NCBI GenBank assembly: GCA_019683805.1 | Contig: JADGHQ010000015.1 | Coordinates: forward strand, 1 to 42,985 | Length of the DNA stretch: 42,985 bases | Source: Thermoleophilaceae bacterium | GTDB taxonomy: Bacteria > Actinomycetota > Thermoleophilia > Solirubrobacterales > Thermoleophilaceae | Direction of reading: 5' to 3' | Shown here: one piece after another, positions 7,236 through 8,396 of the stretch | Layout: each line of letters opens with the position of its first letter | How positions within the stretch are numbered: position 1 is the first letter of the stretch | Notes under the pieces: model-generated | What the model saw: the letters and a program-made list of their open reading frames with translations, nothing else | Told to the model about the DNA's origin: nothing | Databases searched by the model: none | Position numbers and translations under genes: made by a program

Positions 7236-7339
7236 GCGGGCGCCCCTTCGCTCGAAACCGCAGTTCGCCACGACATATGGGGAAGACTGCCCCCTTCGGA
7301 GTGAGGTCCTCGGCGCCTTGGCGCCGTCCGGCGGGTGTG

Positions 7340-7353
7340 CGAACATACGTTCG
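7340..7353 (+). promoter_or_regulatory. LexA (SOS) box
   Basis: CGAACATACGTTCG fits the Gram-positive SOS-box consensus CGAAC-RNRY-GTTYG at every position, with perfect CGAAC/GTTCG half sites. It lies immediately before the radical SAM gene; its last base is the first base of the GTG start I prefer at 7353. LexA bound here would cover the start region and block transcription until DNA damage. This argues against the longer reading that begins at 7335, which would put the operator inside the coding sequence. Confidence 0.85.
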
Positions 7354-8396
7354 TGCGCTGGGACAACCTGAGAGTCGACGCTGAGGAGGCGCAGCGCCTC
7401 CCGGGCTACAGCGAGCCAGCCGTGGTCCGGCGCTTCGACGCGCCCGAGGCGCTCGACATCCGCTTCTACGAGGTCAGGGCGAAGTCGGCGCTGAACAGGG
7501 TCCCGCCGCAGTCCCGGATGCCGTTCCGTTGGACCGTCAACCCGTACAGGGGGTGCACCCACGCCTGCGCCTACTGCTTCGCCCGCCCGACGCACAGGTA
7601 TCTCGACTTCGGGCCGGGCCGCGACTTCGAGCGCGAGATCGTCGTGAAGGTCAACGTGCCGGAGCTGCTGCGGGCCGAGCTGGCGCGGCCCTCGTGGAGA
7701 CGCGAGCACGTCGCGCTCGGCACCAACACGGACCCCTACCAGTGGGTCGAGGGGCGCTACAGGCTGATGCCGGGGATCTGGGAGGCATTCCGCGACTTCC
7801 GCAACCCCTGCTCGGTGCTCACGAAGTCGCCTCTGCTCCTGCGCGACCTGCCGCTCATGAAGGAGGTGGCGGCGGTGGCGCCGATCAGCGCGAGCCTCTC
7901 GGTGCCGACCATCGACGAGAAGGCCTGGCGCGCCAGCGAGCCGCACACGCCGCACCCGCGAGCGCGGCTCGAGGCGGTCGGCGAGCTGAACCGCGCGGGC
8001 ATCCCGTGCGGGATCCTGATCGCGCCGCTGATGCCCGGCATCAACGACAGGCCGGAGCGGGTCGAGGAGATCCTCGAGCTCGCGGCCGAGGCGGGCGCGG
8101 TGAGCGTCGGCGGCATCGCGCTCCACCTGCGCGGCGAGGTGAGGGACGTCTTCTTCGACTGGCTGCGCTCGTACCGGCCAGACCTCGTCCCGCGCTACGA
8201 GCAGCTCTACCGGCGGGGCGCCTACGCGCCGCCGACGGAGCGGAAGCGGCTCCAGGACCTCGCGCGCCCGAGCGGCGCGTTCGCGCTTCGCGGGAGGGGC
8301 CGCCGGCCCAACCGCGAGCGTGCCGCGTCCGCGCCGCGGCGCGAGCGCCGGGCCGGCGCGCCGGGCGATAGGTACGAGCAGCGTGCGCTGTTTTGA
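7353..8396 (+). CDS. Rv2578c-family radical SAM protein, probable SOS gene
   Basis: The 347-residue protein starts at the GTG at 7353 (MRWDNLRV). I chose this over a GTG at 7335 because mycobacterial Rv2578c, as I remember it, also begins MRW, and because the SOS box occupies 7340-7353. The radical SAM cluster motif is Cys68-x3-Cys72-x2-Cys75 (RGCTHACAYCFARPTHRYLD), which resembles SplB-type enzymes. Further family marks are LGTNTDPYQWVEGRYRLMPG and TKSPLLLRDLP. The protein ends EQRALF, which fits the QxxLF pattern of sliding-clamp binding peptides. The LexA operator and that tail suggest work on damaged or replicating DNA. The substrate is unknown. Confidence 0.88.
   Translation: MRWDNLRVDAEEAQRLPGYSEPAVVRRFDAPEALDIRFYEVRAKSALNRVPPQSRMPFRWTVNPYRGCTHACAYCFARPTHRYLDFGPGRDFEREIVVKVNVPELLRAELARPSWRREHVALGTNTDPYQWVEGRYRLMPGIWEAFRDFRNPCSVLTKSPLLLRDLPLMKEVAAVAPISASLSVPTIDEKAWRASEPHTPHPRARLEAVGELNRAGIPCGILIAPLMPGINDRPERVEEILELAAEAGAVSVGGIALHLRGEVRDVFFDWLRSYRPDLVPRYEQLYRRGAYAPPTERKRLQDLARPSGAFALRGRGRRPNRERAASAPRRERRAGAPGDRYEQRALF

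Follow-up and report, generated by a model that had tools for sequence, protein, structure and literature searches.

What would a radical S-adenosylmethionine (SAM) enzyme do in the SOS response, and where would it act? This question is raised by a gene at positions 7353..8396 (+ strand) of a 42,985-nucleotide stretch of contig JADGHQ010000015.1 of a Thermoleophilaceae bacterium (this whole stretch is referred to as the window). The gene encodes a 347-amino-acid protein of the Rv2578c type, has a LexA operator at its GTG start codon, and ends in a peptide resembling those that dock on the beta sliding clamp, DnaN. Taken together, the evidence makes it fairly likely that the product is an SOS-induced radical SAM enzyme that is tethered to DnaN and reverses a base lesion near replication forks. 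“SplB-like” SOS genes have been present in lists of LexA regulons for more than 10 years with no function assigned, and a conserved clamp-docking peptide would tie the enzyme physically to the replisome, narrowing the search to lesions that forks meet.

The LexA operator and its conservation

The LexA (SOS) box CGAACATACGTTCG is a perfect palindrome of the pattern CGAACN4GTTCG and occupies positions 7340..7353. As the original prediction had stated, it ends exactly at the start codon, its final base being the G of the GTG at 7353; it is the sole perfect LexA box in the window. The source genome, a 2.56 Mb actinobacterial metagenome-assembled genome (134 contigs, 95% complete), contains eight perfect copies of the pattern. 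One of these begins 60 bases ahead of the lexA start and another lies 73 bases ahead of recA, whereas an imuB-like gene (L009; G000:C86:9208) has a 14-mer identical to the box of the radical SAM gene at its very start. With a consensus box at its start and the same box before the lexA and recA genes of its own genome, the radical SAM gene has the features of a LexA regulon member. Further perfect boxes precede the genes of a 166-amino-acid protein (L005; G000:C21:44262) and a 384-amino-acid protein (L004; G000:C21:16039).

Conservation of the operator was assessed in 176 relatives with sufficient upstream DNA and in 892 background windows. A perfect box was found in 78 of the relatives vs. a single background window, and a box with at most one mismatch in 129 vs. 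31. Two palindromes of equal composition, taken as controls, had no perfect copies, and with up to one mismatch they occurred in 2/176 and 0/176 relatives, respectively. A chance origin of the box was ruled out by the background windows and these control palindromes. The offset of the box from the start was −13 to −17 in the Solirubrobacterales and mostly −22 to −35 in other groups, with a few boxes at −69 to −90. In a phylogenetic tree of 139 sequences, into which 30 proteobacterial loci were entered as lacking the actinobacterial LexA box, the Rv2578c clade comprised 94 members, of which 77 had the box. Searches for LexA boxes of the E. coli and alphaproteobacterial types before the proteobacterial relatives yielded few good matches, counted without a proper background, and no claim is based on them. 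In a Streptomyces-like group with large genomes (L100–L109), the standard box is mostly replaced by GGAACN4GTTCT at a fixed distance, which may be a lineage-specific LexA site.

LexA control of COG1533/radical SAM genes has been reported for Gram-positive bacteria, with M. tuberculosis among the organisms compared (PMC7739468), for Alpha- and Betaproteobacteria (PMC3323433), and for Bacteroidetes (PMC8565304). The gene vnz_31145 of Streptomyces venezuelae, a radical SAM gene for which the Rv2578c type is not implied, has a LexA peak in chromatin immunoprecipitation and is induced by mitomycin with a fold change of 19.97 (PMC9380542). The conserved box, the perfect boxes before lexA, recA, and the imuB-like gene, and the published S. 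venezuelae data support the LexA control that had been proposed from the locus itself. Judged from its sequence context, the radical SAM gene is almost certainly under LexA control.

The C-terminal tail and the sliding clamp

As LexA control of such genes is already published, what is new is that the clamp tail extends across the family. The putative clamp-binding motif QRALF (residues 343–347; positions 8379..8393, + strand) follows an unconserved Arg/Ala/Pro-rich linker (residues 311–342; positions 8283..8378, + strand), which was modeled with low confidence (predicted local distance difference test, pLDDT, about 50). In an alignment of 53 sequences, Q343 (conserved to 91%) and L346 (94%) stand out beside linker columns that are mostly conserved to 10–40%. 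QRALF thus resembles the published bacterial clamp consensus QL(S/D)LF (PMC9690074), lies in a flexible segment, and is conserved in the family, which qualifies it as a candidate beta-clamp peptide; a dnaN gene is present in the same genome (G000:C112).

Tails were counted in 184 complete relatives and 454 neighboring open reading frames (ORFs). The pattern QxxLF, as named in the original prediction, was found within the last 10 residues of 61 relatives vs. none of the neighboring ORFs, and the wider pattern Qxx[LM][FLIMVA] within the last 12 residues of 137 relatives vs. two ORFs. Since the wider patterns were chosen post hoc, QxxLF constitutes the fair test, and it passes too. None of 30 true spore photoproduct lyases (SPLs; a control set defined by PF20903) had the tail, and the consensus of the Gln-anchored tails was Q-L-[T/S/A]-L-[F/L]. 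A chance origin of the tail was ruled out by the neighboring ORFs, by shuffles, and by the SPL controls. The original prediction depended on tail and operator being conserved in close relatives, and both were conserved far above background.

Docking of this kind is known from other proteins. The repair enzyme NucS/EndoMS of Actinobacteria binds DnaN through a C-terminal [E/K][L/Y][T/R]LF, without which a low mutation rate is not maintained (PMC8228993), and NucS of the present genome ends with ELTLFDAA. NucS resembles the Rv2578c-type protein in its C-terminal xLxLF peptide, but is an unrelated nuclease of mismatch repair. ImuB of the mycobacterial mutasome is likewise LexA-controlled and clamp-bound, for which it requires QLPLWG (PMC10421592), but it is a catalytically inactive polymerase in mutagenic bypass and not a radical SAM enzyme.

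The same peptide could also serve a LexA-controlled protein as a C-terminal degradation tag or as another recognition signal. SOS proteins are often short-lived, and the hydrophobic motif ends exactly at the C-terminus in 96 of the 154 motif-bearing tails; however, it is followed by 1–20 residues in the other 58, which is unusual for an end-recognized degron, and in several phyla the clamp consensus is matched by the QLxLF form and by the placement of Gln and Leu. A degradation or other signal is therefore considered improbable, and the radical SAM protein very probably binds the clamp through its tail, as far as the sequence conservation indicates. No literature linking radical SAM enzymes with clamp binding was found in a search that had most subscription journals outside its reach. 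To our knowledge, the Rv2578c type would be the first case of a radical SAM enzyme held at the sliding clamp.

Family placement, predicted fold, and substrate

The ORF at 7335–8396 (+ strand) has its first GTG at 7335, and the GTG at 7353 yields the family-typical VRW; the relatives have M/V-R-W at the corresponding start. The [4Fe-4S]/SAM site CX3CX2C (C68, C72, and C75; positions 7554..7577, + strand) is invariant in all 53 aligned relatives, and the features originally described for this ORF, namely the preferred GTG start, the CX3CX2C site, and the terminal EQRALF, are all present. With PF04055 the protein scored 48 bits (vs. 29.5), which places it in the radical SAM superfamily. The score with NF038135, the model of the Rv2578c family (COG1533; the SOS-regulated “SplB” of Actinomycetota), was 412.4 bits and thus below the curated cut-off of 430 bits, which was passed by none of 149 genomes of the same class; this cut-off therefore leaves out the whole lineage. 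Residues 1–304 cover positions 1–307 of the profile, indicating full-length homology. In the tree, the protein falls within the 94-row Rv2578c clade (support 100) and not with PA0069, and its nearest named relatives belong to the Thermoleophilaceae and Solirubrobacterales. Full-length match, clade, and upstream LexA box thus agree with the Rv2578c family, whereas the clamp tail has not been described in the family literature found; a link of one family member to repair was termed speculative in a recent paper (PMC12924846). Probable inteins split the radical SAM site at the third Cys of CX3CX2C in 40 of the 184 relatives (among them L021, L037, L041, L043, and L059), so that splicing would be required before the catalytic cluster could form. 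An NCBIfam model for intein-bearing family members already exists.

AlphaFold2 modeled residues 1–310 with confidence and residues 311–347 poorly, the mean pLDDT being 90 overall. The fold closest to the predicted one is that of SPL (SplB; PDB 4fhc and 4fhf), with which it shares the CX3CX2C site and the core (Z 20; 3.3–3.6 Å across about 270 residues); the next fold follows at Z 14.6. A search of the PDB with the single sequence found no relative, whereas the family profile retrieved SPL as best match, although weakly (E 4e-4). The H-donor Cys140 of SPL is aligned in the profile alignment with Thr124 (codon at positions 7722..7724, + strand), a column with Thr in 44/53 and Gly in 9/53 members; owing to the low identity around Thr124, this match is likely but not certain. 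Beyond the three cluster Cys, no Cys is conserved in most of the 53 members, the nearest to this being one column with Cys in 24. Some SPL-like sequences likewise lack Cys140.

These data bear on the nature of the substrate. Spore photoproduct is a lesion of spores, where SPL repairs this UV damage. A true SPL homolog acting on spore photoproduct would agree with the nearest solved structures, which are all SPLs, but PF20903 was absent from the Pfam matches reported (only PF04055 was returned at E 0.001), Cys140 is replaced by Thr or Gly, the SPLs lack the linker and the tail, and the lesion itself is one of spores; this identity is thus very unlikely. The absence of Cys140 disfavors the classical spore photoproduct reaction, and it is highly likely that the lesion differs from spore photoproduct. 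The proposed similarity to the distant relative SplB accordingly extends to the fold, but probably stops short of the exact reaction. Alternatively, an SOS-controlled and clamp-tethered enzyme might act at the fork by modifying not a DNA base but a protein or an RNA, for instance a component of the replisome or an mRNA. The structural matches also include SkfB, SuiB, PFL-activating enzyme, and RlmN, and the catalytic Cys of SPL is missing, both of which would suit such a substrate. However, SPL, a DNA enzyme, ranks well above all other folds over nearly the full length, and the best profile matches in the PDB are SPLs as well, which leaves a protein or RNA substrate unlikely. The fold and the SOS control favor DNA, and a DNA lesion is the likely substrate.

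Several observations weigh against a clamp-tethered DNA repair enzyme. The Cys140 of SPL is replaced throughout the Rv2578c-type family, and the case for a DNA substrate is drawn entirely from the SOS control, the fold, and the tail. Two relatives of one genus (L076 and L086) have kept the box and lost the tail, which indicates that the tail is not indispensable; a frameshift was ruled out as the reason for this loss. Moreover, the Gln is missing from some tails in Actinobacteria (xPTLF, xALF), of which the xPTLF tails would still fit because actinobacterial clamps accept xLTLF.

For a repair enzyme at the clamp, the following mechanism is proposed. LexA would hold the radical SAM gene repressed until DNA is damaged. 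Inactivation of LexA by RecA would then induce the gene along with lexA, recA, and the imuB-like gene. The product would consist of the SPL-like core (residues 1–310), the disordered linker, and the C-terminal QxxLF peptide, which would insert into the hydrophobic cleft of DnaN and thereby keep the enzyme on the DNA, either at the replication fork or behind it. At this site, a base lesion in DNA other than the classical spore photoproduct would most likely be reversed by means of a 5′-deoxyadenosyl radical.

PA0069-type relatives and the probable order of gain

The PA0069 family (NF033668) is homologous in its core and shares the clamp-like tail, but forms a separate clade with full support. 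Of its proteobacterial members, 27/28 carry the motif and 23/28 the exact QxxLF, whereas most lack the actinobacterial LexA box. One actinobacterial family (L204–L217) is nested in the PA0069 clade among proteobacterial sequences, which suggests, from the tree position, that its PA0069-type copy was gained by transfer; it has retained the tail, QPSLF, and lacks the box. Since the PA0069 types and this family have the tail without the box, the tail tracks the protein and the operator the lineage, and the clamp tail probably predates the actinobacterial operator. Whether the Rv2578c and PA0069 types together form a wide class of radical SAM DNA repair enzymes that are tethered to the clamp, differ from SPL, and reverse a base lesion at forks, with an ancestral tail and LexA control added in separate lineages, is evenly balanced.

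The gene neighbors were uninformative: counting the window itself, an upstream YjbQ gene was common to seven loci, and an amidase and an acyltransferase gene to three each. Five distant radical SAM homologs (L221–L224 and L229; about 50–110 bits) end with QTSLF, QASLF, or QEKLF, and clamp-like tails may thus occur in more radical SAM families.
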